Source: a virus. From it: a DNA stretch of 28,918 nt. Below the pieces are notes generated by a model, which searched no databases, had not been told where the DNA came from, and worked only from the letters and a program-made list of their open reading frames with translations. Numbering within the stretch: the first letter of the stretch is position 1; every line of letters starts with the position of its first letter. The stretch lies in the IMG/VR virus record IMGVR_UViG_3300046698_000139, positions 1 through 28,918 of that record; one strand, given 5' to 3'. Both the position numbers and the translations under genes were made by a program. Below are positions 7,403 through 25,734 of the stretch, one piece after another.

Positions 7403-7413
7403 GGTGATTCTCC

Positions 7414-9981
7414 TTATGCTGAGATGAACTTCGAAACCTTATCAACCAACTCCTTTGCGGCCTGCACGGGCGCACCGCTCAGTTTTGGAGTTGTGATCGG
7501 AACCGCTGCCTGTTGGCGCAGATTGGCGAGCGCAGCCATGGCATCATCGAGCGCGGCAGCCTCCAATTGTTGAACTGTTGGATTAGGTTGCGGCGGCGGC
7601 GGCGCACCGGCGCGACCAATCTCCCCTTTGAGCTTCTCTTTGTAGCTTGCAACCTGCGCCTGATAATCGATGGCCAGGCGCTTGAACGCAATGATATTAG
7701 CCCATCCCATTGGATTCTGCTGCTTCACATCGCAATTTTCTGCGCAAAATTGATCAATCGTCGGGAGCAGGATGTTGTAATCCTCAACCCACTTGTTCGG
7801 CGCGATCGATGGATTGAACATCGGCGTACCGTCGTCAGGATCGGTCATCTGCATCCCGTTCGGTCCGATCTTCGGCGTCGGCGGTGTCTGGAGCAGCCTG
7901 CGGATGTCCTGGAGCGTCTTCGACCGCTGCGCGGCGCCAGGCGCAACCGAGCCCGGCAGCCCCCAGTAGTCGTTGAGTAGCTGCTGGTTGGCAGTCTCGT
8001 CAAGCCACGCGAGGGCCGCCGGGTTCTGTTTCTCAGCCATCTCCATGATCGTCTCGCACCACTGGCGCTTCTGCTCGGGTGTCATGGGCAGGCCTTCGTC
8101 GGTGTTCGCGCGCACCCTCACCCGGCCCTGCATCTCGTCGAGATGGACATAGTTGTTCCGGAACTCGCTGCCGTTCTCTTCGATCACTTGCCAGAGCGAG
8201 CCGGTATAGGCCATGTTCTGCTGGAGGCACTCAATCGCGTTCTGGCCCGCTGAGGCATGCTCATCCTTCATCGAGTCGTAAACGTCCGATAGCGGCCCCA
8301 TTGCCTGATCCAGCATCTGCTTCTGGCCCTTGCCAGTCTCGACGCCTGGGGTAGTGCCAGTGCCAGAGACCTGCGGAGGGATGCCGGAGATGATCTGGCA
8401 ATAGTTCCAGAGCCGGTCGAGGTAGTCGAAGAGGCCGGCGTCCATCTGGAACTGGAAGTGGTAGATGGAGTTCGCAAGCGGCTGAGTCACGCCCTCACCC
8501 ACCGATGGCGTCGGATTGAGCACTCCGCCCGTTAGCGGCTTGCCGCTCATCTCCCGAATGTCGATGCGCCGAGGGTCAACCAGCGTGATGCCGGTCGAGC
8601 AGCGCTCCATGTAGTCGTCGAGGATATTGTTGATGGCGTTGAACCGCTCATTGAACGGAACAACATTGTCAGCCACGCTCGGCGGGTACAAGCCATATCC
8701 GCGGTGCAGTTTGCAGGCTGACCACTCTTTGATGAGGACGGCTGGTTCGACCGAAAGCACCAGTGGCCCGTACATCGTGACCTTCATCCCATAGGGGAAG
8801 ATGGCCTTGAGTTGCTGTACGAACGCATCGTCATTCTGAATCCGGTAGTAGGAATTCGGCTGGACCCATATCAGCGAGTAGGTTCCGCGCGCGGCAAAAA
8901 TATCGGCCGTGACCGAGAACGACGACGAGAAGACCATCGTCCGCACCAGCCGCTCATAGCTGGCATTGTCGTTGGTGGCGCTCTCGACCCCCTCGGTGAT
9001 CTCCGGGGCCATGTCGGGGAAGGTTGCCCGCACATCCGAAGCGTCAACTTCCCACTCCAGCGCCAGCAGTGGAACGTCTTCGAGAAACTCCTTGGTTGGA
9101 TCGGTGTCCACCTGTAGCGGAGAGAAGACCGACCATTTCGGCAGGCCATTGGGCTTCTTCTTGGTGCCCACCTGGCCGATCACCGCGGCGGTCTCGCCCG
9201 GCTGAAAGTCTTGGGGATTGAGTTGCGCGCCGCACTGCGGGCACCTCATCTGCCCAGTTTCGGGAGAATCGGCGCCGCAGTTTGAGCAGTGGAAGTGGTC
9301 CTCGGAGATTTTGGCGTCGATGTCGCCGAAGACCGGCTCGTTCTTGTATCCCACCCAAACGCCATCAATCACGAACCGGGTCCACTTGAAGTAGACACCG
9401 TAGAGGAATAGGTACTGCGCTTCGAGTTGCAGCAGGCCCTTGGTCTTGTTAGCCTCCTCGATGATGGTGATGGCTTCCTGGCCGGCCTTGGCCGTGGTCA
9501 TGTCGGCCAGATTCTCGGCGTTCTCGGGGCGGATGACGACCGGGGGAACGGCGCGCGCGACAGCGGAGGAGAAGTTGCGCCGACAGGTCTGAGTGATGTT
9601 GTTGACGTACTTTTCGAGATAGCTGTAGTCGGTTTCTTGGTTGTTCTGGCGGTAGTAGGCAACGGCGTCGAAGTAGGTCCGGGTGATGGGGTCCCAACCG
9701 AGAATCTGCTTGCCCTTGTCGTACTCGGTGTTCTTGAGCCAGTTGGGCATCTTCATAATGCGATCGGTGGCCCACTGAGTACGGAAAGGCTGGATGATCT
9801 CGCCGACAATGCGCTCGCTCTGCTCCTTGGTCAATCCGTGGAGGCGGTCGAGGCTCTGAGAGTCGCCTGGTTGAGGATTTTGGGGAGTCTTTTCGGCGGT
9901 GGCGGGAGTGGTCGTCTGCTGCGGTGAAGATGGTAAATTGCCGCCGGATTGCATAGTAAGGACAGGGGGACTAGCCGCCAT
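7414..9981 (-). CDS. Putative portal protein with inserted zinc ribbon (855 aa)
   Basis: A large soluble protein with a Pro/Gln-rich N-terminus (1-45), a helical region (50-200) with many aromatic residues, a zinc ribbon (C232, C235, C247, C250; CSNC then CPQC), a central beta/alpha region (280-520) and a long helical C-terminal part. The size, helical stem-like regions, the stretch FNAINNILDDYMERCSTGI near 447, and location upstream of scaffold- and coat-like genes fit the portal of P22-type phages, the dodecameric ring through which DNA is packaged. Four-cysteine ribbons are not part of the usual portal core, so this is an insertion. Start ATG 9981 follows AGGAAGG and overlaps the previous gene by 11 bases. 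Another in-frame ATG lies at 9951. Confidence 0.75.
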   Translation of the reverse strand: MAASPPVLTMQSGGNLPSSPQQTTTPATAEKTPQNPQPGDSQSLDRLHGLTKEQSERIVGEIIQPFRTQWATDRIMKMPNWLKNTEYDKGKQILGWDPITRTYFDAVAYYRQNNQETDYSYLEKYVNNITQTCRRNFSSAVARAVPPVVIRPENAENLADMTTAKAGQEAITIIEEANKTKGLLQLEAQYLFLYGVYFKWTRFVIDGVWVGYKNEPVFGDIDAKISEDHFHCSNCGADSPETGQMRCPQCGAQLNPQDFQPGETAAVIGQVGTKKKPNGLPKWSVFSPLQVDTDPTKEFLEDVPLLALEWEVDASDVRATFPDMAPEITEGVESATNDNASYERLVRTMVFSSSFSVTADIFAARGTYSLIWVQPNSYYRIQNDDAFVQQLKAIFPYGMKVTMYGPLVLSVEPAVLIKEWSACKLHRGYGLYPPSVADNVVPFNERFNAINNILDDYMERCSTGITLVDPRRIDIREMSGKPLTGGVLNPTPSVGEGVTQPLANSIYHFQFQMDAGLFDYLDRLWNYCQIISGIPPQVSGTGTTPGVETGKGQKQMLDQAMGPLSDVYDSMKDEHASAGQNAIECLQQNMAYTGSLWQVIEENGSEFRNNYVHLDEMQGRVRVRANTDEGLPMTPEQKRQWCETIMEMAEKQNPAALAWLDETANQQLLNDYWGLPGSVAPGAAQRSKTLQDIRRLLQTPPTPKIGPNGMQMTDPDDGTPMFNPSIAPNKWVEDYNILLPTIDQFCAENCDVKQQNPMGWANIIAFKRLAIDYQAQVASYKEKLKGEIGRAGAPPPPQPNPTVQQLEAAALDDAMAALANLRQQAAVPITTPKLSGAPVQAAKELVDKVSKFISA

Positions 9982-12734: not shown

Positions 12735-13460
12735 TTATTTGATGGCGGAGAGGTCCGCCTGTAGCTGGTTGAGGTTGAATCCGCTGGGAGAGCCTTTCGC
12801 GCCCATCCAAACGGATGAAAGCAGCCCATGGGCCTCGTCCACGTATTTGTTCCAGAAAGCCACGGTCATTCTGTAGACCGCCCCCCACGAGATGAAGGTG
12901 AAAGTCTTCGCGTCGTATCCAACTACGAAAACGCAGTGGCCTCCGTCAATCCCGCCATCATCCGTGGTCACGTCCCACAATTTCGGGATGCTGTCCATGA
13001 TGAAGTTAGGCACATCCATGCCGATGTAGCAGCCGCCAAAGAGCGCGATGGTCTGCCGGATCTCTGTTAGGTTGGCAACCTCGGGATCGGCGAACGCCAG
13101 CAGCGCATGGCCGGCCAGCGTGTTCTTCTTCCACGCATTCAGTACGTCCAACTCGATGCCACCGTTGTCTGTCGAGGCATCACCGTTCACATAGCCGTCC
13201 CATGCCTCGTAAGCGGCCAGGATGTCGCTATCGAATACCGTGAGTTCCAGCCCGACGTTGGAAAGACTCCAGACCTGCACCGCGTGGCCGCATCCGGCTA
13301 TGGTGCAGTCTCCCAGGGTGTCGTTCAGCATCATGCCCCAATCGGAGACGCCATGAGTCCAGTCCACGCTCGCGGGCGGGGGAGGTAAGGAGGGCGTGAG
13401 GTAGCGGGCCATGCGGAGCGTCCGGCTGTCTGTGCGGATTGCTTTCCGTCCGAGCTTCAC
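12735..13460 (-). CDS. Papain-like (C1-type) cysteine peptidase (241 aa)
   Basis: I chose the GTG at 13460 because GAGGAG lies seven bases before it; the GTG five codons earlier has no ribosome binding site. Residues 47-60 read DTLGDCTIAGCGHA, placing C52 at the N-terminus of a helix as catalytic nucleophile (C57 is the alternative). Residues 172-182 read DGGHCVFVVGY, with H175 as catalytic His, followed by FISWG near 189, the position of the papain NSWG motif. The Asn of that motif is missing. No signal peptide or propeptide was seen. It lies between the holin candidate and the 179-aa gene, so it could act on the envelope during lysis, or instead process virion or host proteins. Confidence 0.75.
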   Translation of the reverse strand: MKLGRKAIRTDSRTLRMARYLTPSLPPPPASVDWTHGVSDWGMMLNDTLGDCTIAGCGHAVQVWSLSNVGLELTVFDSDILAAYEAWDGYVNGDASTDNGGIELDVLNAWKKNTLAGHALLAFADPEVANLTEIRQTIALFGGCYIGMDVPNFIMDSIPKLWDVTTDDGGIDGGHCVFVVGYDAKTFTFISWGAVYRMTVAFWNKYVDEAHGLLSSVWMGAKGSPSGFNLNQLQADLSAIK

Positions 13461-13480
13461 GGTGGTGCTCCTCACGATGG

Positions 13481-13774
13481 TTACTTCGTTGTCGCCGCGT
13501 CCACTTCGGCGGCGGTTGGCGCGTTGCCGTTGCTCATGATGGCCTTGGACTCGGCCACGATACCGGCGGGGCTGTGCGAGGTCTTGTAGGTCACGTAGAT
13601 TCCCGCCAGCGTCACGATGGCCGTGCCCAGGTCAGGGTTGGACTTGAAGAATTGCAGCACCAGCGCCTTCGCCTGCGGGTCCGCCACTATGATGCCTGCT
13701 GCTACAGCCAGGAAAGCGGCGATGCTGTGCGTACTCCAGTTGTGTGCCTTGAACCATGCCGATAGCCAGTTCAT
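13481..13774 (-). CDS. Putative holin (97 aa, two membrane helices)
   Basis: Residues 17-32 (HSIAAFLAVAAGIIVA) and 49-63 (LGTAIVTLAGIYVTY) are hydrophobic helices separated by a short charged turn, with an aromatic N-terminus (MNWLSAWFKAHNW) and a polar C-terminal tail. Size and topology fit a two-helix holin, which forms the inner-membrane lesion that releases endolysin. The gene sits immediately upstream of a peptidase gene and 1.9 kb from the M15 lysin on the same strand. The ATG overlaps the stop of the 44-aa gene as ATGA, with GAGGA upstream. Confidence 0.75.
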   Translation of the reverse strand: MNWLSAWFKAHNWSTHSIAAFLAVAAGIIVADPQAKALVLQFFKSNPDLGTAIVTLAGIYVTYKTSHSPAGIVAESKAIMSNGNAPTAAEVDAATTK

Positions 13775-13905
13775 CGCTCATCCTCTTCGTCTTCGCCTTG
13801 CTCAAAGCAGGCGCAATCGCAGTCCTCAACATTGCACTTCGATGACCCCGGATATTCAGGATCGCCGCCGTGCTCGTCTTCAACGTGTCCGCATGTGCAG
13901 TTCAT
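13771..13905 (-). CDS. Small Cys-rich acidic protein (44 aa)
   Basis: Encodes MNCTCGHVEDEHGG, then a linker, then CNVEDCDCAC and an acidic tail. Two CxC/CGH-type clusters suggest one bound zinc ion (C3, C5, H7 or H12 and the C-terminal cysteines). Similar CxCGH...CxxxxCxC peptides are common among phage and actinobacterial hypothetical proteins. The ATG is preceded by GGGAGG, and the stop overlaps the holin ATG as ATGA, so it is translationally coupled to it. The cysteine pattern resembles that of the + strand 76-aa protein at 28494. Confidence 0.7.
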   Translation of the reverse strand: MNCTCGHVEDEHGGDPEYPGSSKCNVEDCDCACFEQGEDEEDER

Positions 13906-13918
13906 CGCTTGCCTCCCT

Positions 13919-14080
13919 TTACTCAATCGTTAAGCCAATCTCGATGCACTTATCCTCGATGATGCCGCGCAACTCTTTGTCGGTCACGAGCATCATTTCC
14001 GGCTGATCTTCGGGGCTGTCGCGGTCAGGCAATTCCTGCACCGCCTGAACGATTGAATCGATCCATTTCTGAACTTCCAT
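13919..14080 (-). CDS. Small acidic protein (53 aa)
   Basis: Starts MEVQKWIDSIVQAVQELPDR and ends with a helix and a short strand (IGLTIE). It is acidic and probably helical. The ATG at 14080 follows AGAGCAGGG. A longer 77-aa version from a TTG at 14152, directly after the preceding stop, is possible but has Gly/Ala-rich non-helical sequence and no ribosome binding site. Function unknown. Confidence 0.55.
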   Translation of the reverse strand: MEVQKWIDSIVQAVQELPDRDSPEDQPEMMLVTDKELRGIIEDKCIEIGLTIE

Positions 14081-14153
14081 CCCTGCTCTCACTTTCCCGT
14101 CAGCGTGCTCACCGGCCCGCCCGTCTTCCGTGCTTCCAGCCACAGCTTCCAAT

Positions 14154-14546
14154 TTATTGCGGCACGCCTCCTACCGCAGTGATACAGGTTCCCTTTTGAA
14201 TACAACCTGTCATATCGGACGGCTTCCACATTATTTCTGGTGCGCATCCTGTCGGTTTGATCTGCGCGGGAACGATGAACTTGAAGTCGGCGCTGTACTC
14301 AAAGCCCACAAACCACGGACATAGGTCATAGGGATGCGCGTCGTTCCATGTCCGCAGAACAGGCGTCACATACTTGGTCGTGATGTGATCGTGGAGTTGG
14401 CCGATCTTCGCCTCAACCGCCGCTTTCTCCGCATACAGAGCCTTGGCTTGCGCTGCTTCTTCCGATGTCAGTTGAATCACCTGAGCCGTCTGCGCATGGA
14501 GTGCCGCCGCCAGCAGCAGGGAGAAAAGTAGGGTCAGTCGGTTCAT
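14154..14546 (-). CDS. Small exported protein (130 aa)
   Basis: The start ATG 14546 is set by AAGGAG eight bases upstream; that site lies inside the 33-aa gene, whose stop overlaps this ATG as ATGA. Residues 1-20 (MNRLTLLFSLLLAAALHAQT) are a Sec signal peptide with likely cleavage at ALHA|Q. Residues 26-55 form a charged coiled-coil helix, and the C-terminal half has five cysteines (two CxxxC-like spacings) that could form disulfides in the periplasm. There is no lipobox. Together with the preceding membrane peptide it might form an envelope-disrupting pair, but that is speculation. Confidence 0.75.
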   Translation of the reverse strand: MNRLTLLFSLLLAAALHAQTAQVIQLTSEEAAQAKALYAEKAAVEAKIGQLHDHITTKYVTPVLRTWNDAHPYDLCPWFVGFEYSADFKFIVPAQIKPTGCAPEIMWKPSDMTGCIQKGTCITAVGGVPQ

Positions 14547-14644
14547 TGTTGCTGCTCCTTCCGTTCGTTCGCGCATACCACAACAGCAAGCGCGGTCCAG
14601 AAAACCAGCACCACTCCGAGGTACAGCTTCGCAATGAAGATCAT
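14543..14644 (-). CDS. Single-pass membrane micropeptide (33 aa)
   Basis: Encodes MIFIAKLYLGVVLVFWTALA followed by a few more hydrophobic residues and a charged tail ending KEQQQ. Nearly the whole peptide is one membrane helix. Its start overlaps the stop of the ribbon-helix-helix gene and its own stop overlaps the start of the exported 130-aa gene, both as ATGA. The three form one translationally coupled chain, which is the main reason to accept so short a gene. Function unknown; small phage lysis or superinfection factors have this shape. Confidence 0.6.
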   Translation of the reverse strand: MIFIAKLYLGVVLVFWTALAVVVCANERKEQQQ

Positions 14645-14805
14645 GCCCCACCCTTCCGGCGCTCTTTCCACACTGCAAGCGGGCGTTCCAGCTCCGCCTC
14701 AATTAGCGCCTCAACCCACGCTTTGAGCGTCATCCGGCAAGCCTTTGCCCGAACCTTCGCCAGATCGTGTACAACAGGGTCGATCTCAACTTTGGTGCGC
14801 GTCAT
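14641..14805 (-). CDS. Ribbon-helix-helix (Arc/CopG-like) DNA-binding protein (54 aa)
   Basis: Residues 2-8 (TRTKVEI) form the N-terminal strand that would enter the DNA groove. Residues 10-23 (PVVHDLAKVRAKAC) form helix 1, and residues 26-40 (TLKAWVEALIEAELE) form helix 2. Length and pattern match Arc/CopG-type repressors, which bind as dimers of dimers to short inverted repeats. A likely promoter lies so close upstream that the mRNA would start at or near the ATG, without a ribosome binding site. Autoregulation is plausible. The stop overlaps the next start as ATGA. Confidence 0.75.
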   Translation of the reverse strand: MTRTKVEIDPVVHDLAKVRAKACRMTLKAWVEALIEAELERPLAVWKERRKGGA

Positions 14806-14811
14806 ACACCC

Positions 14812-14839
14812 ACGATACACCCTTTTTGCGCCTTGTCAA
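14812..14839 (-). promoter_or_regulatory. Probable sigma70-type promoter for the RHH operon
   Basis: A perfect -35 box TTGACA (14839-14834) is separated by 16 bases from TATCGT (14817-14812), a four-of-six match to the -10 consensus. The expected start point is about seven bases further on, at 14805, which is the A of the ATG of the RHH gene. The transcript would therefore be leaderless or nearly so. Confidence 0.6.
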
Positions 14840-14853
14840 GGGGGATCGAGTAC

Positions 14854-15072
14854 TTAAAACTCAGCGCCTTCAAGTTTTAGCCACGGTTCGGGTGGGTACG
14901 CTGGATGCCAGCCGCAGTGACGGCATGGAGTGGATGTATTTGTTGGGAGATCCTTACGGTCTCTTATCTCTTTTGCGTTGAACATGATGATGCCGCCACA
15001 ATTTAGCCCTTGGCATGGAATGTAGACATCAGGCTCCGAGTGATTCGTTGAAACCCATGTGCTTTTCGACAT
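14854..15072 (-). CDS. Small zinc-binding-type protein (72 aa)
   Basis: Starts MSKSTWVSTNHSEPDVYIPC. CQGLNCGG in the first half and CRHCGWHPAYPP in the second give four cysteines, plus a possible His, typical of a zinc ribbon. I use the ATG at 15072; the TTG just before it is less likely. The ribosome binding site is poor (GGGGG about six bases upstream). It lies just upstream of the RHH promoter. Function unknown. Confidence 0.6.
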   Translation of the reverse strand: MSKSTWVSTNHSEPDVYIPCQGLNCGGIIMFNAKEIRDRKDLPTNTSTPCRHCGWHPAYPPEPWLKLEGAEF

Positions 15073-15115
15073 CAAAAACCCCCAAGGTACTCAAGGAAAA
15101 TCCATTGTCAAGCGC

Positions 15116-15220
15116 CTATTTCTTCGGCTTCTTTGGAGTAGGCGGGACTGGCTTGGGCAAGCACGGTATTGGCTCAGGGGGAGGAAATGGGTTGACTGGA
15201 GGGACTTTCTTGGCGCTCAT
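15116..15220 (-). CDS. Pro/Lys-rich micropeptide (34 aa)
   Basis: MSAKKVPPVNPFPPPEPIPC followed by more Pro and a KKPKK end. Thirteen of the 34 residues are proline. The ATG overlaps the stop of the 216-aa membrane-protein gene as ATGA, and GAGGAATCC precedes it. That coupling is the evidence for a real gene. The upstream membrane protein also ends in a Pro/Lys-rich tail, so the two may work together at the envelope. Confidence 0.55.
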   Translation of the reverse strand: MSAKKVPPVNPFPPPEPIPCLPKPVPPTPKKPKK

Positions 15221-15867
15221 GGATTCCTCGGTATCTGCGCGTCCTGCGCGGGTTGGTTGTTGAATGACACTCCCCCAGGCCGTTGAAAGTAGGAGTGCTT
15301 CGGTTTGACAGGCTTCGGCTGAGAGTCCTGCGGGATAATCGTGACCGGCGGATCGGTCGGAGGCATTGCATAGTACCGCTGCCAATCCTCGGTGAGCTTG
15401 ATAATCGCAGGCGCCCTGCCAGCCAGGTCCATCAAGGCGCTCCCAGCCTTCCATGCCCGCTCTACCGGCCACACCATAGCGACGCACAGTACGGTAGTGG
15501 CGAGGCTCCAGACCGCAATGCGGTTCTTGAAGCCGTCCTTGCGCTTCTGTTCTGCTGCTATTTCCATATCCTTGCGTGTTCGGCGTTCGGTTCGCGCTTC
15601 GGCGAAAAACTCCCGCGAATCCGCGATGAAGCCAGGTTCGTCGTCTCCGTTGTATAAGTCCTTCATTATGCGTCTGTGGTCCACTTGCAACGCGGCCATG
15701 GGGCACTGATTCTGATGGTGCGCAATGGCACATTCGACGGCGGCGGACGCGGCAATAGTGGATGCGGCGGTAGCTGCGACTGTGGCAGCATCGGCAGCGG
15801 CGTGTCTCACTTCTTCCCTCACCGCCGCTATGAGTTTCATCTCGCCGTCTTGGCCCATTTCGTCCAT
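15217..15867 (-). CDS. Single-pass membrane protein with Ala-rich helix and Pro-rich tail (216 aa)
   Basis: Residues 10-50 are an Ala-rich amphipathic helix. Residues 80-112 are a highly charged helix. Residues 116-134 (IAVWSLATTVLCVAMVWP) span the membrane, and residues 158-216 form a Pro/Lys/Gln-rich tail. Arg/Lys flank the N-side of the helix, so the charged domain is probably cytoplasmic and the Pro-rich tail periplasmic. GGTGAGGG precedes the ATG; a second in-frame ATG lies three codons later. The overlapping 252-aa Arg-rich frame on the same strand is rejected. The topology recalls an inner-membrane lysis or spanin-like factor, but no family was recognised. Confidence 0.7.
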   Translation of the reverse strand: MDEMGQDGEMKLIAAVREEVRHAAADAATVAATAASTIAASAAVECAIAHHQNQCPMAALQVDHRRIMKDLYNGDDEPGFIADSREFFAEARTERRTRKDMEIAAEQKRKDGFKNRIAVWSLATTVLCVAMVWPVERAWKAGSALMDLAGRAPAIIKLTEDWQRYYAMPPTDPPVTIIPQDSQPKPVKPKHSYFQRPGGVSFNNQPAQDAQIPRNP

Positions 15868-15921
15868 CCCTCACCCCTCAATCCGCCACCCTTGCGGGCT
15901 TGCTATTACTGCACTAGGCGG

Positions 15922-16083
15922 TTACTGCTTCTTCTTTCCCGGATCGCCGTCTGGCCCGCGCATCCACTCCTCAAAATCAGTTTCCGTCACTGCCCGCACA
16001 ACCGGCTGTGCAGTCTTGCGCTGCCCGCCCACGCGCGGCTGGCCCTTCTTCATCCCGTTCTTGCGCGGCGGATTGGTCATCAT
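15922..16083 (-). CDS. Small basic protein (53 aa)
   Basis: Starts MMTNPPRKNGMKKGQPRVGG and ends DPGKKKQ. TAAGGATCT precedes the ATG pair; the second ATG (16080) has the better spacing. It begins six bases after the 1876-aa gene stop. It is basic and disordered with a short acidic patch (TDFEEWMRGPDGD) in the C-terminal half. Function unknown. Confidence 0.55.
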   Translation of the reverse strand: MMTNPPRKNGMKKGQPRVGGQRKTAQPVVRAVTETDFEEWMRGPDGDPGKKKQ

Positions 16084-16089
16084 AGATCC

Positions 16090-19000
16090 TTAGTAAAATG
16101 GCACATCTCTTGGCGTTCCGGCCACGTTGATAACCAAACACCCTGTCGGCCCTACCGCTGGACAGTTGTTTACACCAGGCGCATCCACCGTTGCACCTAT
16201 CGACACTTGCCCGGTCCCAACTGTTTCTGCCGGTCCCGTTAACCAAAACGAGTGAGCAAGTAAGGTGAGCAAACCGTTATATGGCGTGTCGGTGTCAAAA
16301 CTAAGCAAGCCGTTGGCACCACGAGTTTGATCCGGGCACCATTGCAACCACGGTCTAGACGTTATACCTACACCAGTAAATCCAAAACAAGCTGACGGAC
16401 CACCGCTAAAATTGACACCGCGCATGACGAACTGCCACGGTAAACCACCACCCGAAGGTGGCAGAAGCGATACTCCATTTTGCCCCACCCCTGCGTTGTT
16501 CATGCCAAAGATAGAGTAGGTATCGTATGTACTGGTTGAATCGAGAGTTTCTCCAGCAAAGAACCCGGTGTAATTGCTGGTGTACCCTCCGAGAGTTGGA
16601 TTTGGGTCTTGTAATACCGTACCTGCTCCAACTCCAGACCCGGAGCGATTTGCTGTTGAGGCCACTGTTGCTCCCAACAACGGTGGAGATTGAATATGAT
16701 TCGTTCCTGTTTCGATTGAATTAACAATCAAATTGGAAACCAAGTTAGTCCAGTTATCTGTTGGATGGTGGTAATCTGTGCTATCTTGCAAGTAGTAATT
16801 TGGATCAGCAGAGTTATTTACAGGTCCGTCAACATCCACCAGCAACCCACCCAAAGAATTGATGTATAAACCTTGCTCGTTGAGCAAAACATTCGTTTGC
16901 GCGGCAGTCACATCGGCCCAACAGTAGGCATCTGGACCATAGGGGGTTAGAGTGGTATCGACGAATGCCGCACCATCTGCATGAAGATTCTGCCAAAGAG
17001 TTTTATGCGCTGCAAAAATAGTCGCAGCGTTCTCACAGGATGCCGCGTCCTGATCGAAATGAAGAATGAATAAAACTGGAGTTGTTGCACCGCCCGCTGG
17101 TGTGAACGGGTGCATTGTTGTTGTATAATTTGTAGCTTCATTTACAGCAGTATCTCCACTTACTGTGTTATCGACAACAGTGACGCCAGCTTGTTGGGCA
17201 AGCGTTGAATATTTAAGTTGCGAAGGTAATGTATACCTGCAAGCATTTGATACTCCCGTCACAGATGGGGTGCCGCTGTAGGCTGTATAAAAACCCAACT
17301 GCTGAAGTCCGATTCTTGGACCGCCTCCGTTGGTCGAGATGGCTAATCTATAGTAGGTGTATAGACCAGGGGTAATTGGAAAATTCACAGCAACGTTTGC
17401 TACCCATGATGAGAATGTTTCGGTGTCCAGCGTAGTCCACGAGACACCATCGGTTGAGCCTTCAAAAATCCAATTTGTAGGGCTATTGCTCAAATCTCCG
17501 TAGAAATCCCAGGGAGTTATAGAATAAGACGAGAATTGAGTCTTAGATGGAAATTGATATTGTACATATTCGTTGGAGTTTGTAGCAGCATTCCATCCGC
17601 CGTTGGTTGGATTGAATACCTGCCACGGAAAATAATAACTGTAACGACTAGAAGCAGTCACTAATCCAGACGGGGCATTGTTGGAAGTCATAACAGGAGC
17701 AAGCTGTAAACTTGCGCTCCATTGAGTTGTAGACAAACCGGCGCTTAAAACCGTAACTAACTGCCCGTTCAAACCTGTATAGGGAGCAGAAAACCCTTGT
17801 AAGATGTGGATGTTTCCCGCAACCTCATTGTTGTTTTGAGTGAATGTGATTACACCGCTGGAGATACTGATTGCTGTTGGAAATTCGGACGCCGAACCGG
17901 AACCGAACATACAGCTTGATGAAACACGCGAGCGTGAATCCCCATTATCAATCCAATGAGTATTTGCCGCTGGATAAAACCCGGTCAACACTGTCCCGGT
18001 CTGCCCGTTAACGCTATCAACTGCGCCTCCTCCCGAACCGCAGGGACTTCCGGTGTTGCTGATCAGGCCCGTGGTTGCTATCTGCAAACAGTCTGGACCA
18101 CCTGTAGATGGAGCTAGGCTGGTCGCATATTGATAGTCCAGGTTGTTTGGGATCAGCGGATGAGTTATATGCGAACTGTTGAGATTCTGCCAGCTTGCCA
18201 AATATGGAAATCCTACATTCAGAATGTCGTATATATCTTGGTAGACATTGACTGGCTCCGCATTGTTTTCGTCGTAACTCAACCCATTTACAGTTAGTGT
18301 TCCAGTGGCCGACGAGTGTACGTACTCGATCAGCCCTTCCTGCAAAGACGATGCCCGGTATGGGTCAGTAGCCATTGCTGGGCACGATTCGCATTGGTAT
18401 CCGGTGATAGTGTTCGCGCCAAGAACTCCATAAAACATCGCTCTCGTGATTCCACTGGCATACAGGCTGTTGATTGGGAATCCAACCGGGATAGAAAGAT
18501 CGTCGCGCGATAAGTTCTCCCATCCAAAACCAACTACGCCTTTGTAACATCCCCAGTTCGCTCCGTTGATAGCGTTTGCAAGGTTTCTCGATGTTTGGCG
18601 CTGGCTGGGTGTTTGAGGGAAGGCGCATGGCTCCAAAAAGTCTACAGCATTTGCACTAAACTCCGGTTTCCAAAACTCCTCTGCAAACCAATCGTCGATT
18701 GCCGAGTTCGATCCGCTGGAGATGATATGGAGGTTGCTGATCGATACAGGTTCCGAGAAACCTCCCGCTCCTTCGGCATAATCGGTGCGGTGCGCCCATG
18801 CTCCGCCGTTTACCAGAGATGCCCCATCGGAACTGAAATTGAGATCGGCAATCTTGAATCCGTTGTCCATTGAAGAGGTAAGCAGACCAAGTGCATCGTT
18901 CGTGAAAGTCATGTCGTGGACAGAGCTATAGTTGGCGTTGTTGTTGGCGAATAAGCCCACAAAGGCTTGCTTGATTCCGATTCCAGTCACATCCGAGAAA

Positions 19001-21720
19001 GCCAGTGGACCACCAAACATCGCTGGCTCTGTCAGCATCGATCCCGGCGTGGGAGTGTCGTAGGTGAGATAATCCCACACTCCAATAAGTTCCACGCCAG
19101 CGGAATATGCCCCACCGGGTCCAAGCCAACTTACATTGGGTTGCATCATTACCTGCACGGGCATGGCGGCAGGAAGTAAGGCGGCAAGATTAGTGCATTG
19201 AGACGTGAAAGCCGATGTTCCTCCGTTCCAGCAAGATACATTTCCGAAGACAATGGCGGGGGCTACAGAGCATCCCACGGGGGCGGTGCTCCAAGTTGCG
19301 CTCGTCACTACACCGGATGAGTTAGTAGTGGCTGTTCCTTGTCCTTCGACATAGTATTCATCGCCTAAGGCAATGCCTCCCGTGTAGGTGCAGGAGTTGC
19401 TTACTGCAAAGATGTTCACCGTGCCGCTATGCACATACCCTGCTCCGCCAGCGCCGATTGAAGGCGTCCCGCATGTCCCGCCCGTGAGTGTGCAGGTCGC
19501 CGTCGCTCCGTCGCCTCCCAGCGGCACAACCGCGACTGTCGGCGCTGTCGTCAGGCCGTATCCGTTGTAGACTGCCGTAACGGTGGAAACGACACCGCTT
19601 GAATTTGTGTTGGCTATGGCAAACTCCCCGCCGCAGGGACCGGCATAGACAGCGGGGCATCCCCCGGTGAACGTCATTTGCATCTGTGCGCTGTGCGGGT
19701 AGCCGCTCCCTCCATTCGTCACCGTGTAACCTGTGATTCCGCCTCCAGCTACTGTTGCTGTTACCACTGCGCCACTGCCTCCAGCGGGAGATTCATAGCC
19801 GCCGTCGTCTTGCGCCACGCCAGAGGTCACATAATAAGGAGATGTGACCATGAGGTAATTCCCTGGAGGAACTGCACAAGTAGCTCCACCGAGATTTGTT
19901 GCATAAGTCGCGCAAGCGTTGAATGCGGGCACGTTGTCTGTGCCGATGAACCAGTTGGCTTGTCCTGTGGTTAAAGACGCTTTGTCCACCGTCGCATAGT
20001 TTCCTGAAACGGAGAGAATCTTGACCACGTTTCCTGGTTCGCCTTGGGTAGCTGGATACGGAGGCCATGCGCCTCCATGCGCTCCGCTTTGCAGCACAAG
20101 GTATTTGCCTACATCAGCCGACGTGAATCCGACGTATGAAGTAACGTAACTGTCTCCGGTGTTGTAGTAGTTACCTGCTGTACCTTTATCCACGTAAACC
20201 GCATTTGCCAGCGCACCGAAGGCCGTTACTGCGAGTTCAATGTTCGGAGCCGTGTTGGTCACTTCTACGCTCGTGCCCGACGGAGTAATGGCAATGCCTG
20301 GCCCAGGCGTGATGTTCAGAGCGCCGGTTAGGCTATTAAGGCTGCTTACTCCACCGCTCCCGCTGCACCCCGTGCAACTGGTAACGGTGAGGTTGCCGCC
20401 AATGTCGATGCTCCAGTTGGCCGCGCTCACCACGGTTGGTCCTACTGATTCAATATCAACTGCGCCGGTCATGGTGCCGGGATGAGTCGAATATGCAGAA
20501 CTCTGCGACGATATGTTGACGTTCCCCGCATTCGCTTGGCTTGAGTTAGCATCGATCACCACGTTGCCTTGCGACTCTAATCCGATGCCAGATGAATCTA
20601 TGCTCACTGGCCCTGTCGCCGCGAGATTGATAGCACCATCGGGGCCATTGTTTTTTGATGGGTCACTATCGCAATGATCTGGGTCGGTAGGACCGCCTGT
20701 GCAGTTGTCTGCCGTCAGGGTAACGTTTCCGTCGCCGACTTCTGGCCCTGCATCGTTCTTGAAGGCTCCAGCGTTGAGACTGGCGTTTCCTTGCAGAAGA
20801 GCTAGTTCACTGTTATCGTTTTGCAGTTCACAGCACGACCATCCATTCGCAAGCAAATCGATAGATTCCTGATTGTCGAAGGTATCAGTCGCAAGCACGT
20901 TCACTTGTGGCCGAGAAGATAGATTGCTGGCTAGTTTATTCGCGTTCAGGTTTATATCAGCACTTTGGTCTGTTGGCTGTGCTTGGACGGTGAAGTTCGC
21001 GGGGAAGGTGAACGTCTCCGAAGTGGTGACGCCATAATCAGCGAGTGAGTCCACGCAACCACCCGAGCCAGCATCGAGCAGCAAGTACCCAGCTATGCCT
21101 CCCGATGGAGGGCATCCTGTGCCGCCGCCGCTACAAGAATTCGGCTGCGCCACATACGCAGATCCGCTCCAGAGGTAGGCAACCAGGCATGGAGAGCGCG
21201 CGTCCTCGATGCTTACCGCGGCGCTTCCGGTTGCCGCCGTAATCATTCCTGTAGTGCCGCCGAGTCGTGACCAGTCCGGCGTTAGAATGACCTCGTAAGG
21301 CAATCCGGCCGCGTAGTTGATCGCCTCCTGGAGCCCTGCGGTCGCTGAGGTCAGCGTGAACGTGTTGTGCTGGTGAACGGGACTGACGGTGATCGAGCAG
21401 CTTGAGTTACTGGTGTACACCGCCGACGGCACCACAATCTCTGAGTTGGCCGGCACATGGTCCTTGATGTAGACGGGGGTGCCCACGTTGAAGACCGGCT
21501 TTAGAGGCATCCCGCTCGCGGTCGCGGTGCAGAAGTACGGAGCGGACCATGAGAATTCGCCTGTGTTGCCCTGGGGCACACTCCACTGGCCGAAGTTCGA
21601 CGCCCAGAGGATGCCGGCCGTGTTGCCTGGACCCTGCGTGACCTGGCCGGGGGTCTGGGCGAGGGCTGAGCATCCTGCGCCCAGCCCGAGTATCGCAAGC
21701 AAAAGAGTCAGTTTTTTCAT
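16090..21720 (-). CDS. Giant exported tail-spike-like protein with SGNH esterase and discoidin-like insertion (1876 aa)
   Basis: Residues 1-22 are a signal peptide (cut at ALA|Q). Residues 35-190 are the N-terminal domain shared with the next two upstream genes. Residues 460-490 hold a tail-fibre motif (LNSLTGALNITPGPGI). Residues 496-1200 look like a pectate-lyase-type beta-helix (VTAFGA at 498; AFNACATYATNLGGATC near 600), with three Gly-rich GSGY-type repeats at 650-770. Residues 1233-1246 carry SVNGQTGTV. A GDS at 1260-1262, VSGDTA at 1520-1525, HFDQD at 1554-1558 and DYHHP at 1649-1653 (D1649, H1652) fit SGNH blocks I, II, III and V. Residues 1345-1480 resemble an F5/8 type C domain. It has no clear ribosome binding site and starts four bases after the preceding stop. 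The C-terminal half is AT-rich. Likely role: host-surface polysaccharide binding and deacetylation. Confidence 0.8.
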   Translation of the reverse strand: MKKLTLLLAILGLGAGCSALAQTPGQVTQGPGNTAGILWASNFGQWSVPQGNTGEFSWSAPYFCTATASGMPLKPVFNVGTPVYIKDHVPANSEIVVPSAVYTSNSSCSITVSPVHQHNTFTLTSATAGLQEAINYAAGLPYEVILTPDWSRLGGTTGMITAATGSAAVSIEDARSPCLVAYLWSGSAYVAQPNSCSGGGTGCPPSGGIAGYLLLDAGSGGCVDSLADYGVTTSETFTFPANFTVQAQPTDQSADINLNANKLASNLSSRPQVNVLATDTFDNQESIDLLANGWSCCELQNDNSELALLQGNASLNAGAFKNDAGPEVGDGNVTLTADNCTGGPTDPDHCDSDPSKNNGPDGAINLAATGPVSIDSSGIGLESQGNVVIDANSSQANAGNVNISSQSSAYSTHPGTMTGAVDIESVGPTVVSAANWSIDIGGNLTVTSCTGCSGSGGVSSLNSLTGALNITPGPGIAITPSGTSVEVTNTAPNIELAVTAFGALANAVYVDKGTAGNYYNTGDSYVTSYVGFTSADVGKYLVLQSGAHGGAWPPYPATQGEPGNVVKILSVSGNYATVDKASLTTGQANWFIGTDNVPAFNACATYATNLGGATCAVPPGNYLMVTSPYYVTSGVAQDDGGYESPAGGSGAVVTATVAGGGITGYTVTNGGSGYPHSAQMQMTFTGGCPAVYAGPCGGEFAIANTNSSGVVSTVTAVYNGYGLTTAPTVAVVPLGGDGATATCTLTGGTCGTPSIGAGGAGYVHSGTVNIFAVSNSCTYTGGIALGDEYYVEGQGTATTNSSGVVTSATWSTAPVGCSVAPAIVFGNVSCWNGGTSAFTSQCTNLAALLPAAMPVQVMMQPNVSWLGPGGAYSAGVELIGVWDYLTYDTPTPGSMLTEPAMFGGPLAFSDVTGIGIKQAFVGLFANNNANYSSVHDMTFTNDALGLLTSSMDNGFKIADLNFSSDGASLVNGGAWAHRTDYAEGAGGFSEPVSISNLHIISSGSNSAIDDWFAEEFWKPEFSANAVDFLEPCAFPQTPSQRQTSRNLANAINGANWGCYKGVVGFGWENLSRDDLSIPVGFPINSLYASGITRAMFYGVLGANTITGYQCESCPAMATDPYRASSLQEGLIEYVHSSATGTLTVNGLSYDENNAEPVNVYQDIYDILNVGFPYLASWQNLNSSHITHPLIPNNLDYQYATSLAPSTGGPDCLQIATTGLISNTGSPCGSGGGAVDSVNGQTGTVLTGFYPAANTHWIDNGDSRSRVSSSCMFGSGSASEFPTAISISSGVITFTQNNNEVAGNIHILQGFSAPYTGLNGQLVTVLSAGLSTTQWSASLQLAPVMTSNNAPSGLVTASSRYSYYFPWQVFNPTNGGWNAATNSNEYVQYQFPSKTQFSSYSITPWDFYGDLSNSPTNWIFEGSTDGVSWTTLDTETFSSWVANVAVNFPITPGLYTYYRLAISTNGGGPRIGLQQLGFYTAYSGTPSVTGVSNACRYTLPSQLKYSTLAQQAGVTVVDNTVSGDTAVNEATNYTTTMHPFTPAGGATTPVLFILHFDQDAASCENAATIFAAHKTLWQNLHADGAAFVDTTLTPYGPDAYCWADVTAAQTNVLLNEQGLYINSLGGLLVDVDGPVNNSADPNYYLQDSTDYHHPTDNWTNLVSNLIVNSIETGTNHIQSPPLLGATVASTANRSGSGVGAGTVLQDPNPTLGGYTSNYTGFFAGETLDSTSTYDTYSIFGMNNAGVGQNGVSLLPPSGGGLPWQFVMRGVNFSGGPSACFGFTGVGITSRPWLQWCPDQTRGANGLLSFDTDTPYNGLLTLLAHSFWLTGPAETVGTGQVSIGATVDAPGVNNCPAVGPTGCLVINVAGTPRDVPFY

Positions 21721-21724
21721 AGGA

Positions 21725-22696
21725 TTAGTTCAGAATCGCATACGAGAAACATCTGGGGTTAGTGGTTGGAGCAGTGGTTGTGATGGTGAAACTGGTTCCG
21801 GCAGTGCGCGCGCTGATGGTCGGTGGCGCCGTGGCTGCGGTGGCATTACAGGTGACACTCAAAGCAGTGCTGAGGCTCGGGTCTTCCTGCACCAGAATGG
21901 TCGAGGTCGCCGTGACAGCAGTCGTATTGACGACAACGGTCGTTCCCGAGGCCGCCACATTCACGAATCCGGCCGGTGCCGCTGCGCAGACCGCTGGAGA
22001 TGAAGCAGAGGCGCATTTGGTCGCGCTGGCCAGAGATGTATATGTCGCCGCTCCAAGTACCGGGGTTGTCAGCGTCGGGCTGGTCGCCAGAACACTCTTT
22101 CCGCTTCCGGTCGAGTTTGACGCTGGCGTGCCGTTGCCGGTGTACGGAATCGCGGTCGCATTGCGCTGATCGAGGATCGTGGTATTTGCGCCGGCCGTCG
22201 CTGCGGTAATCATTCCGCTGGTGCCACCCATGGCAACCCAGTCTGGAGTCACCACAACGATCCCATAGCCTGAACCGATCCAGTTCAGCGCCTCTTGCAG
22301 CCCCAGCGTTCCGCTTTGCAGGTAGTAATTCGAGTGCGCATGGGTCGCGGGCAGGCCAACCGAGCAGCCGGCGCCGTTATAGCTTGCAATCGAGGGCGTC
22401 ACGGTCTCGGTGTTCGCCGGAACGCCCACATCGACGATGGTGATGGGCGCCGTGGTCGAGAACAATTTGAAGTTGACCCCGCCGGACGTGCCGTAGCACT
22501 GGCTGGGGCTGGTCCAGGAGAGGCCAAGATCGCTCGGCTTGATGGTCCAGTGGGCAAAGTTGGCGGCGTAGAGCTGGCCGGCGATGTCAGCCGGGCCGTT
22601 GGCGGGCTGGGTAACGCTGGCGGTGGGGCTGGTGACTTGAGCAGCGAGCGCCAATGGCAATGCCAGGACCGCTGCGAGCAAAGCATATCTTTTCAT
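21725..22696 (-). CDS. Exported tail-fibre-like paralogue B (323 aa)
   Basis: Residues 1-19 are a signal peptide (MKRYALLAAVLALPLALAA|Q). Residues 40-190 match the shared domain of the 1876-aa and 309-aa proteins: AANFAHWTI, ANTETVTPS (94-102), GLQEALN (132-138), PDWVAMGGTSGMITAAT. Residues 200-222 (SVLATSPTLTTPVLGAATYT) are a motif I know from phage tail-fibre proteins. The C-terminal strand-rich part (ATAPPTISARTAG ... CFSYAILN) resembles the end of the 309-aa protein. The ATG follows AAAGGAG. Likely a fibre or receptor-binding subunit; why it carries an export signal is unclear. Confidence 0.75.
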   Translation of the reverse strand: MKRYALLAAVLALPLALAAQVTSPTASVTQPANGPADIAGQLYAANFAHWTIKPSDLGLSWTSPSQCYGTSGGVNFKLFSTTAPITIVDVGVPANTETVTPSIASYNGAGCSVGLPATHAHSNYYLQSGTLGLQEALNWIGSGYGIVVVTPDWVAMGGTSGMITAATAGANTTILDQRNATAIPYTGNGTPASNSTGSGKSVLATSPTLTTPVLGAATYTSLASATKCASASSPAVCAAAPAGFVNVAASGTTVVVNTTAVTATSTILVQEDPSLSTALSVTCNATAATAPPTISARTAGTSFTITTTAPTTNPRCFSYAILN

Positions 22697-22724
22697 GGCG
22701 ACGATGCTCCTTTGAAAATGGTTC

Positions 22725-22779
22725 GGGCTGGGCCTCCGCGAAGAGAACCCAGCCCGGTTGTCGGCTCTGAAAAGAGCCG
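22725..22779 (-). promoter_or_regulatory. Two tandem hairpins between paralogue genes
   Basis: Arms 22725-22733 (CGGGCTGGG) and 22748-22756 (CCCAGCCCG) form a perfect nine-pair stem. Arms 22762-22768 (CGGCTCT) and 22773-22779 (AGAGCCG) form a seven-pair stem with a four-base loop. Neither is followed by a good T-tract, though AACCATTTTC follows the first on the minus strand. They fill the gap between the 309-aa stop and the 323-aa ribosome binding site; attenuation or mRNA stabilisation is inferred. Confidence 0.55.
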
Positions 22780-22807
22780 CGGCCCGCTGTGATGCTGCGG
22801 GGATGGT

Positions 22808-23737
22808 TTACTTGCAGTTCCAGCTAAAGCTGTACGCTGTGGTGCTGGCCAGCGCCGAGGCCACAGAGACCGTCATAATGCCGTGGCTTGAGTAGGAGTT
22901 CGTCACGGTCAGGGTTGGCGGTGCTGTCGCTCCAGTGCTCGTGACCGTGCAAGAGCCTGGTGCAGCTTGGAACTGTCCACTGTTCGCCCAAGTTTCGGTG
23001 AATACAGTGCCAGTGGTCGCGGTGCCGGTGGTGAATGAATAGGTGCCAGAGAGAGCGGTGCCTGTCGCAACTTTGCTGGTCGCGGTGCCTGCGGCCGCGC
23101 CTGTCGCCGCGGTCGGGGCGGTGTTGACCCATGTTCCAGAGGCATACGCCGAGCCATTCCACACGTAGTAGGTCGGTCCAAGAGTGGTGATGTCCTCGAC
23201 CATGACTGAAGCATCACCCTTGGCCGCGCCGAGAATGGTAGCCGCCGTGGTCCCAGGGATCTGGTTGGCGATCGTCCACCAGTTCTTGTCCAAGAACAGC
23301 AGTGTCGGCCATGCGCCCTGCCCGGAAAGCGCGTTAATCGCCTCTTGGAGGCCTGCCGTGCCGGATCGCAACTGGAAGTTGTAGTGATTGTGGGCCGGGG
23401 CCACGGTCGCGCCGCAACTGCCGGCCGTGTTCACGACAGCCGACGGAGTGACTACTTCGGAGTTTGCAGTGTTCGCGTCCGCAATCAGGACCGGGGTGTT
23501 ACTCGCGTTGAAGACGAAGAAGTTCACGTTCTGGCCGGCGCTGTTGCAAAGGTTGCGGCCCTGGAAGATGTAGGTATTCGGGCTCTGGCCATTGATCGAC
23601 CACAGTTGGAAGCTGCTGGCGAAGTACCAGGGAGCCGTGAACGGAGTGTTGGCGGTTTGCGCTTCAAGCCTGGGAGCCGCGCACACGGCGGCGAGGATGA
23701 GCGCGACGGCGAAACCAAGAACTGACTTGTTGCGCAT
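22808..23737 (-). CDS. Exported tail-fibre-like paralogue C (309 aa)
   Basis: Residues 1-27 are a signal peptide (likely cut at LEA|Q). Residues 38-200 are the shared domain: ASSFQLWSI, ANSEVVTPSAV (91-101), TAGLQEAIN (127-135), VWNGSAYASG near 192-201. Residues 200-245 are a Thr/Gly/Ala low-complexity linker. Residues 260-309 repeat the APPT-type C-terminal strands of the 323-aa protein and end FSWNCK. The ATG follows AAAGGAG, with the bases around it (ATCGCCATG) close to those before the 323-aa gene, as expected after tandem duplication. Confidence 0.75.
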   Translation of the reverse strand: MRNKSVLGFAVALILAAVCAAPRLEAQTANTPFTAPWYFASSFQLWSINGQSPNTYIFQGRNLCNSAGQNVNFFVFNASNTPVLIADANTANSEVVTPSAVVNTAGSCGATVAPAHNHYNFQLRSGTAGLQEAINALSGQGAWPTLLFLDKNWWTIANQIPGTTAATILGAAKGDASVMVEDITTLGPTYYVWNGSAYASGTWVNTAPTAATGAAAGTATSKVATGTALSGTYSFTTGTATTGTVFTETWANSGQFQAAPGSCTVTSTGATAPPTLTVTNSYSSHGIMTVSVASALASTTAYSFSWNCK

Positions 23738-23782
23738 GGCGATGTTACTCCTTTGGGGTTGATGGTTGAGGTTGCTTGCCGC

Positions 23783-24268
23783 CTACCAGCTAATTGTGAC
23801 CGATGACGGCGATTGAAACGACATATTGAAACTCGAAGCTCCGCCGCCGCCCAGAAAAGAACGGAACAGCAGGGTATTGAGATTGGTAGGGCCTGAGCAG
23901 ACCGGCGTGGGATAGCTGTAGGTCAATCCGCCTCCGACGCTGCCATTGCCCTCAGCCAGCGTCATCCATGTGCTGCCGCCGTCGCAACTGACCTGCATCT
24001 GCCCGGTGCCCGAGCCAAACGCCCCACCGAGGCTAAAATCCGCATCGTGGGTCGAGTTGAAGTGGAGATTACCCGAGACAACCTGAGATCCGGGCGAGAC
24101 CGAACCGGATGTGAATGTGCAAGTTGTCCCGCTACAGTTGATGGTTCCGAGGCCTGGCGAGAACTGGTAAAAGTGCGTGTTGCCCCGTGCTCCGGTGGTC
24201 CGGCCCGGCGCGCCCGGCACTTGAGCCGCCAGCATCCCGGCGCAGAGCAGCAGAAGAGACCAGCGCAT
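23783..24268 (-). CDS. Exported beta-rich protein (161 aa)
   Basis: Start ATG 24268 overlaps the stop of the 488-aa gene as TGATG; the longer open frame upstream lies within that gene and is rejected. Residues 1-15 are a signal peptide (MRWSLLLLCAGMLAA|Q). The rest is Gly/Ser/Thr-rich with beta-type alternation and two Cys pairs (INCSGTTC at 43-50; further Cys near 94 and 124). It includes DGGSTWMTL, a common surface-protein strand motif. Function unknown; it sits inside the fibre cluster, so it may be a structural partner or surface adhesin. Confidence 0.7.
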   Translation of the reverse strand: MRWSLLLLCAGMLAAQVPGAPGRTTGARGNTHFYQFSPGLGTINCSGTTCTFTSGSVSPGSQVVSGNLHFNSTHDADFSLGGAFGSGTGQMQVSCDGGSTWMTLAEGNGSVGGGLTYSYPTPVCSGPTNLNTLLFRSFLGGGGASSFNMSFQSPSSVTISW

Positions 24269-25734
24269 CACTTCACCCCCACATTCAGCGTGATTGCCGT
24301 CGGCGTGATGTTTGAAGCGGTCTGGTTGCAGATGCTCCAATCGAGCACATCCGGCGAAGAATCGGCTGCAAGTTGAACCACCAAACCGCCAATGGCTCCC
24401 CATCCCACCGCAGCATTTACTGCCGCAATAGACGGCCAAGCGGTGGTGAATGTTGAAGTCGAAACAACGCCAGGTAGAGAGGCTGTTGCGGTCGTCGTGC
24501 ACGTGTTGGCGTTGATAGTCGTTGCCGGAAGCGACAACTGCACCATGGCTCCCGATGGAGCCGCCACAGACACGTTGGTCCGATGGTTGCTCGGGTCGTC
24601 GACCACCGTGAAGCCGGAAGCGAAGTTGAGATTCGACTCCTGCGGCTGCGCGGTTCCCGCTGACTGAACGGTCTGGTAAAATCCGCCGCAAAGGATGCCG
24701 GTGTCGTAAGCCGTGCCGTCTGAACTCAGGCAATAGCCAGCCGTGCCGCCGTCCCCGTTCACCAGGTAGCCACCCGCCGCGTTGATGAAAGACGAGAGCC
24801 CGCCACCCTCAACATCGACACCCCAGCCTGGTGTGCCGGTCCCAACGCCGAGCTTGCCGACGCCGGTGACGTTGTAGCCGCCCAGGCTGAGCGGCCCGGA
24901 GATTGACTGCTGGCCGTGGTTGGCCGGCGCCGACAATATCGGCACGGGGTAGTAGACGACGCCGTGGTAGTAAGGCAGGCCGTTCGATAGGTTGATGGTG
25001 CTCCCGGCGCCCATGAGCTGCCACTGCATCGGGTAGCCGGGCACCGGATTGCCGTACTGGTCGGTCAGTGAGACGTTGTAGCCGGTCCCCGTTGGCCAGA
25101 TCGAGTCATTGGCCGTCACAGCGCATACGGTCGTGTTCGAGGCTGGTACGTTGGCGCCGGAGGCCAGCGCTGTCGATTGAACGAATGACGCGCTCCCGGT
25201 CGTGTACCCCTGGAGTTTCTCAGCGCCGCTCACCGTCGAGATATAGACCGCCATGCCGAGCGCACCGGTGGGAACACCGCTCGAGGGCGGGTTGACCACC
25301 AGCGCCCCGGTTGTGCTCAGGGTTTGGACCGTCTCCGGGCTCGGCAACGAGTAGAGCACCGTCGAGGCTGGCTGGTAATACCAGGCATAAACCGTGTAGT
25401 AGACTCCAGAGCCGAGCGATCCTGACCCGCTGGTGGTGTTGACTGTCGCTGTTTGGGGGTTGGGAAGGAAGACGACCGAGCCATCGGTCGAGGTCGCGCA
25501 GGTGTTGTTGGTGGGAATGTTGACCTGGCAACCGGCGATGAATCCCTGCTGGCTGGGCACCAGCGTCATCGTGTAATTCGAGGCCGGGAGACCGTTGGCG
25601 CCGCCGATTGTGCCTGTCAGCGTGACCTGGGCGAGCTGCTGACAGGTTGGCGTGCAGTGGCCGATGGTGGGGCAGATCAGGATGAGTGCTGCGAGGATCA
25701 GACCGGCGAGGAGGATACGCTGGTTCCGAGTCAT
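24268..25734 (-). CDS. Exported tail-fibre-like protein (488 aa)
   Basis: Residues 1-27 are a hydrophobic signal or anchor (LLAGLILAALILICPTIGHC). Residues 30-270 are beta-rich with Ser/Thr/Gly repeats. Residues 300-350 show a Gly-rich KLGVGTGTPGWGVDVEGG stretch as in phage tail-fibre shafts. Residues 357-395 (FYQTVQSAGTAQPQESNLNF, then FTVVDDPSNHRTNVSV) match a widespread fibre motif. The ATG overlaps the stop of the 69-aa gene as ATGA with GGAGG upstream. The cysteine following the signal could be a lipid-attachment site (GHC), but the lipobox is poor. First gene of the exported cluster. Confidence 0.75.
   Translation of the reverse strand: MTRNQRILLAGLILAALILICPTIGHCTPTCQQLAQVTLTGTIGGANGLPASNYTMTLVPSQQGFIAGCQVNIPTNNTCATSTDGSVVFLPNPQTATVNTTSGSGSLGSGVYYTVYAWYYQPASTVLYSLPSPETVQTLSTTGALVVNPPSSGVPTGALGMAVYISTVSGAEKLQGYTTGSASFVQSTALASGANVPASNTTVCAVTANDSIWPTGTGYNVSLTDQYGNPVPGYPMQWQLMGAGSTINLSNGLPYYHGVVYYPVPILSAPANHGQQSISGPLSLGGYNVTGVGKLGVGTGTPGWGVDVEGGGLSSFINAAGGYLVNGDGGTAGYCLSSDGTAYDTGILCGGFYQTVQSAGTAQPQESNLNFASGFTVVDDPSNHRTNVSVAAPSGAMVQLSLPATTINANTCTTTATASLPGVVSTSTFTTAWPSIAAVNAAVGWGAIGGLVVQLAADSSPDVLDWSICNQTASNITPTAITLNVGVK

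Follow-up and report, generated by a model that had tools for sequence, protein, structure and literature searches.

Five consecutive fibre-like genes with predicted signal peptides in an Acidobacteriota short-tailed phage, and their possible export before joining the virion

Gene content of the window

The window analysed here spans a 28,918-base IMG/VR virus record and is probably a fragment of a viral genome. From the right end, along the minus strand, small genes lead to five consecutive signal-bearing genes, g488, g161, g309, g323 and g1876 (25734-16090), followed by a lysis region and, beyond it, by a portal-like and then scaffold-like, capsid-like and connector-like genes; the head genes are named by their order, their size and comparison with relatives. 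Re-examination of the open reading frames agrees with the first-pass annotation as to the position of the five genes and their N-termini. The features are listed below, with predicted cleavage sites marked by a slash; ND is the domain described in the text that follows, and G001 is a 57.7-kb relative.

24268..25734, minus strand: g488, fibre-like protein with a signal and 8 mature cysteines, a count that varies with the cleavage site chosen; orthologues in at least 13 loci, most with predicted signals
25654..25734, minus strand: g488 signal peptide (MTRNQ...PTIGHC/T), cleavage site uncertain
23783..24268, minus strand: g161, small signal-bearing protein, 4 mature cysteines; the L019 orthologue likewise has a signal
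24224..24268, minus strand: g161 signal peptide (MRWSLLLLCAGMLAA/Q)
22808..23737, minus strand: g309, ND paralogue, 4 mature cysteines
23660..23737, minus strand: g309 signal peptide (...APRLEA/Q)
23141..23638, minus strand: g309 ND domain (HMM)
21725..22696, minus strand: g323, ND paralogue, 6 mature cysteines
22640..22696, minus strand: g323 signal peptide (MKRYALLAAVLALPLALAA/Q)
22127..22588, minus strand: g323 ND domain (AlphaFold2 pLDDT >90 across mature residues ~21-160)
16090..21720, minus strand: g1876, large spike-like protein, 36 mature cysteines
21658..21720, minus strand: g1876 signal peptide (MKKLTLLLAILGLGAGCSALA/Q)
21148..21624, minus strand: g1876 ND domain (HMM)
17929..17952, minus strand: g1876 GDS motif (IDNGDSRS), from which an SGNH-hydrolase-like domain is deduced; the L001 counterpart has a GDSL match
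17323..17658, minus strand: g1876 F5/8 type C (discoidin) domain, residues 1355-1466 (E=4e-5, below the curated cut-off)
16765..16785, minus strand: g1876 D..H motif (DSTDYHH), read by eye as a candidate catalytic motif for the same SGNH-like domain
7414..9981, minus strand: portal-like protein, 89% identical to the G001 portal; named from order and size, with no informative family match

The products of g309, g323 and g1876 are paralogues across their first ~190 residues and have in common a new domain of ~160 aa directly after the signal, which we call ND. No known family matched g309, g323 or ND. The g323 product carries the tail-fibre motif LATSPTLTTPVLG and ends in a beta-strand domain with a weak K1-lyase_C match (E=0.03). 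In g1876, signal and ND are followed by a beta-helix-like start and by SGNH-like esterase motifs that the F5/8C domain interrupts; residues 1338-1470 match the tail-protein family phrog_17517 at the domain level (E=1e-23), and a PDB sequence search with g1876 returned no match. The portal-like gene marks the virion gene block that adjoins the fibre cluster.

Three further minus-strand genes were noted. A 97-aa protein with a hydrophobic segment (13481-13774) is holin-like in size and position, and a 130-aa protein of the lysis region (14154-14546), with its own A/Q-type signal and 4 mature cysteines, may be a spanin-like protein or another periplasmic protein of lysis. The 407-aa protein adjoining the portal (6179-7402), which has a short repeated AYPGQQ motif, was scored as signal-bearing, apparently a false positive given that it contains no cysteine.

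Signal peptides of the cluster

All five cluster products start with signal peptides of the Sec/signal peptidase I type, in which a positive n-region, a hydrophobic core and an A-x-A-like site were scored with our own crude predictor. Cleavage sites are clear in g161 (LAA/Q), g309 (LEA/Q), g323 (LAA/Q) and g1876 (ALA/Q), and less canonical in g488 (GHC/T). The first-pass annotation had described signal-like N-termini on all five, with a clear A/Q site in four, and would have given the idea up had predictor scores been low; the crude predictor placed 5/5 above threshold and called 0/125 cytoplasmic marker proteins from the same phages (portal, terminase, capsid and scaffold proteins and three small flanking families). 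When the N-termini were shuffled at matched composition, the observed score was attained in 0-7 of 2000 trials. The search of related contigs that the same annotation had suggested revealed signals in orthologues of all five genes, and ND itself in about 80 other contigs. Among the 82 ORFs of G001, signal-like N-termini occur only on the four fibre-cluster genes and on two lysis-region genes.

Chance hydrophobic starts are ruled out by the shuffles, the controls and this conservation. Misplaced start codons are unlikely as well: starts are conserved among relatives, and the genes have Shine-Dalgarno sites, the site before the ATG being clear in three genes (GGAGG in g488, AAAGGAG in g309 and g323) and weaker in g161 (GGTGAAG), while g1876 starts a few bases past the g323 stop, indicative of translational coupling. 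Inspection by eye found no lipobox at the cleavage sites, which argues against lipoproteins.

Cysteine parity

Exported proteins that are held by disulfide bonds tend toward even cysteine numbers. In mature signal-bearing ND proteins the count was even in 63/64 (range 4-36; p=7e-18, a value that overstates independence as the sequences are related, though their counts and C-terminal domains differ widely), whereas no bias was seen in the controls, namely portal (18/32 even), terminase (15/35), capsid (5/16) and signal-less ND proteins (9/20). Other signal-bearing proteins of more than 250 aa from the same phages and from Tunturi 1, a set that contains one ND copy re-read from G005, were even in 25/27, and the window products g488, g161, g309, g323 and g1876 have 8, 4, 4, 6 and 36 mature cysteines, respectively. 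High cysteine content was considered as a cause and rejected, since terminase (1.5% Cys) and portal (1.2%) in the same phages have no even bias.

The even-cysteine bias of the mature signal-bearing proteins is a test independent of the predictor and indicates, at the level of sequence, that the cluster signals are functional. DsbA-family genes were present in 4/4 Acidobacteriota genomes tested, and the predicted export and oxidative folding of the cluster proteins are well supported. The bias, which the first reading did not look for, supports the export signals described there on fibre- or spike-like proteins, where such signals are indeed unexpected. Large ejection-type proteins encoded after the nozzle-like gene in G001 (13378-20242) and in the tail modules of G004, G005 and G008 have no cysteines, unlike the fibres.

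The ND domain and its two forms

A profile search found ND in 76 virus-collection loci and 7 bacterial-genome contigs, and wherever an ND contig has a named host, that host belongs to the Acidobacteriota. ND is present in 5/299 genomes of the host class, and no relative of ND or of the portal was found among 50,697 isolated-phage records. Although AlphaFold2 models the domain confidently (pLDDT >90), Foldseek searches with ND against PDB and BFVD gave nothing below E=0.001.

The domain occurs in two forms, one with a signal and one in which the start codon directly precedes the domain. A conserved pair of cysteines is found in 72/73 signal-bearing copies and 0/24 signal-less ones, counts for which L030_2295 and L084_5453, at first scored as lacking a signal, were reassigned manually to the signal-bearing set: the automatic rule overlooked a clear signal in L084, and L030 has a non-canonical hydrophobic N-terminus that is signal- or anchor-like. 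Both forms take one slot in related phages, in the order terminase, small genes, ND, portal, scaffold and capsid. Signal-less proteins of uncultured relatives (L052, L057, L077 and L083) thus have the same domain in the same slot before the portal and differ in lacking signal and cysteine pair; at full length, the signal-less L077 protein and the signal-bearing L085 protein are 33% identical, with the paired cysteines in the signal form only. About two signal switches and three changes of the cysteine pair suffice on the tree, and a test of signal against cysteine pair on independent pairs had no power, with only 1-2 pairs. The correlation of the two characters is therefore weak when taken alone, there being few independent events.

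A signal-less and a signal-bearing ND gene lie side by side in one contig (L043, 2911-4772). On two Acidobacteriota contigs signal-bearing ND genes were found beside glycosyltransferases (L089, 7785-11024) or a polysaccharide flippase (L091, 6328-7018). These two copies have no phage neighbours, so that an exported ND protein need not belong to a virion; the two copies may be a source of the phage module or an escape from it.

Gene context and cultured phages

The cluster forms part of a tailed phage's late block of virion genes, and most ND genes likewise lie within the virion block. Resemblance to tail proteins and spike-type domains comes from g1876 itself (phrog_17517, F5/8C) and from relatives, which have GDSL esterase and weak pectate-lyase matches. 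Among the G001 head genes the terminase alone has a strong PHROG match; the portal-, scaffold-, capsid-, connector-, nozzle- and ejection-like genes of that genome are all without signals. The provirus G296, carried by a bacterial contig of 360 kb, has signal-bearing ND genes interspersed among portal-, capsid- and nozzle-like ones. G004 and G008 have a signal-less ND beside other proteins that bear signals. No further large fibre or spike candidate was found in G001 or Tunturi 1. Receptor binding could in fact fall to small candidates such as Tunturi 1 gp33 (124 aa, annotated as tail fiber, no signal) or, in G001, a protein of 357 aa. By reading of its sequence, G001 (locus L009) also appears to carry genes for GroES- and GroEL-like chaperonins (5007-5324 and 6182-7786).

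The same signal-bearing arrangement is present in Tunturi 1 and Tunturi 2 (PP887698 and PP885685; Tunturiibacter phages whose host is the soil isolate T. psychrotolerans X5P2), podoviruses that were isolated from clear plaques and whose purified virions were imaged by EM (PMC11924767). Signals were found on Tunturi 1 gp12, gp13, gp14, gp16 and gp17, with 20, 10, 20, 1 and 32 mature cysteines, respectively. Annotations within the two clusters include tail fiber, tail spike/pectin lyase (gp14) and virion structural protein (gp17), and pectin lyase in Tunturi 2. As in the window, these are consecutive large fibre or spike genes of an Acidobacteriota short-tailed phage, adjoining lysis genes (gp12-gp17), nearly all with A/Q-type signals and even mature cysteine counts; unlike the window, Tunturi 1 and 2 have 63-kb genomes without ND, resemble relatives of the window in sequence only over short local stretches, and have head genes without detectable similarity. 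The fibre genes of Tunturi 3, a podovirus of the same host strain, and of Tunturi 4, a siphovirus of another Tunturiibacter species, have no signals and few cysteines, which argues that the signals are not imposed by the host. A term search of the text of PMC11924767 found no mention of signals on fibre genes, its main text reports no virion proteomics, and we found no paper that notes the signal-bearing Tunturi cluster.

Discussion

Tailed-phage fibres normally have no signal peptide and are synthesised and folded in the cytoplasm, a reducing compartment; the products of this cluster depart from that state. In architecture they resemble podovirus spikes of the P22 tailspike and K1F endosialidase class, in which a conserved N-terminal module is followed by variable enzymatic or binding domains, and shared parts include beta-helix, SGNH, discoidin-like and K1-lyase_C-like elements; those spikes differ in folding in the cytoplasm and having no signals. 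It has long been known for P22 that purified tail spikes attach to finished heads outside cells. Virion proteins that cross Sec before joining the particle are familiar from filamentous phages, which have single-stranded DNA and Sec-dependent coat proteins and are extruded through the membrane without lysis. These are unrelated to the tailed phages of the window, and the gene set here is of another type, G001 encoding a terminase (PHROG match) and portal-, capsid-, nozzle- and lysis-type genes. A literature search that covered few subscription journals found no precedent for exported fibres in a tailed phage, and the literature searched describes no tailed phage whose assembly is split between compartments.

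It is about evenly balanced, in our judgement, whether the five genes encode Sec-exported, disulfide-bonded tail spikes or fibres that join particles at lysis, in a short-tailed phage of soil Acidobacteriota. The cluster proteins would pass the Sec translocon, be cut by signal peptidase I, usually at A/Q, and fold with disulfide bonds in the periplasm, while heads and tails would be put together and filled in the cytoplasm in the usual way. Once the holin opened the inner membrane, particles would meet the oxidised fibres in the periplasm or the lysate; ND, as the conserved N-terminal module, may dock the fibres onto the particle, and the variable C-terminal parts (beta-helix, SGNH esterase, discoidin-like) may bind or trim surface polysaccharide. 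Virion membership, the docking role of ND and the time of attachment are what we infer here, and a virion role is favoured because of the late-block position, the interleaving in the G296 provirus, the spike-type domains, the want of another spike candidate in G001 and the Tunturi isolates. The broader proposal, that several lineages of Acidobacteriota podoviruses finish their virions outside the cytoplasm by adding oxidised fibres to DNA-filled particles at lysis, is put forward tentatively, with a likelihood a little short of even.

Both a particle completed outside the cytoplasm and secretion from the infected cell had been envisaged in the first-pass annotation, and we favour the former. 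The main rival holds that the infected cell secretes these proteins, that they are adhesive or act on polysaccharide without joining the virion, and that they either loosen exopolysaccharide so that progeny can be released and spread or block superinfection, the virion having another receptor-binding protein. This is possible, though on balance we doubt it. It accommodates the well-supported export and oxidative folding and the enzyme-like domains (GDSL esterase and weak pectate lyase in relatives, pectin lyase in Tunturi 2), and is consistent with the signal-bearing ND genes beside polysaccharide genes in L089 and L091; moreover, the pairing of signal-less ND with other signal-bearing proteins in G004 and G008 suggests that exported proteins may be an extra layer. 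It sits poorly with the lack of any other large fibre or spike candidate in G001 or Tunturi 1, with the tail-fibre and virion annotations, and with the signal-bearing ND that stands where related phages have a signal-less orthologue and that lies between head and tail genes in G296.

The same L089 and L091 copies, together with the one provirus, could point instead to host-captured adhesins or depolymerases that are expressed from a prophage for lysogenic conversion. We consider this unlikely, as the genes are located in the late virion and lysis block, ND was found in only 5/299 host-class genomes, and the arrangement recurs in phages isolated from clear plaques (PMC11924767). Of the suggestions made earlier, a lysogen-only adhesin set as the main role is thus improbable, while capture of host genes holds in part, as an origin, in view of the L089 and L091 copies, and fails for most ND genes, which lie inside the virion block. 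Least credible of all is that the N-terminus is not a working signal and that the fibres are cytoplasmic and acquire disulfides only after lysis, in the oxidising outside. Such a course would agree with the standard assembly pathway of tailed phages; against it stand the near-universal (K/R)-hydrophobic-A/Q pattern across very diverse proteins, the signal-less ND without a cysteine pair in related phages that are equally exposed outside, and the fibres of Tunturi 3 and 4, from the same host genus, with no signal and few cysteines.

If the proteins are a secreted set, about a third of the sequenced contig would be devoted to secreted polysaccharide-active proteins. Cultured phages allow either reading to be tested already: Tunturi 1 and 2 have the arrangement, and Tunturi 3, on the same host strain, is without it. 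Should export precede attachment to the virion, tailed phages would be using the secretion and disulfide machinery of the host to make stable, cysteine-rich receptor-binding proteins, and heads and fibres would be built in separate places. The annotation of phage genes would change accordingly, in that a signal peptide would be no argument against a role in the virion.
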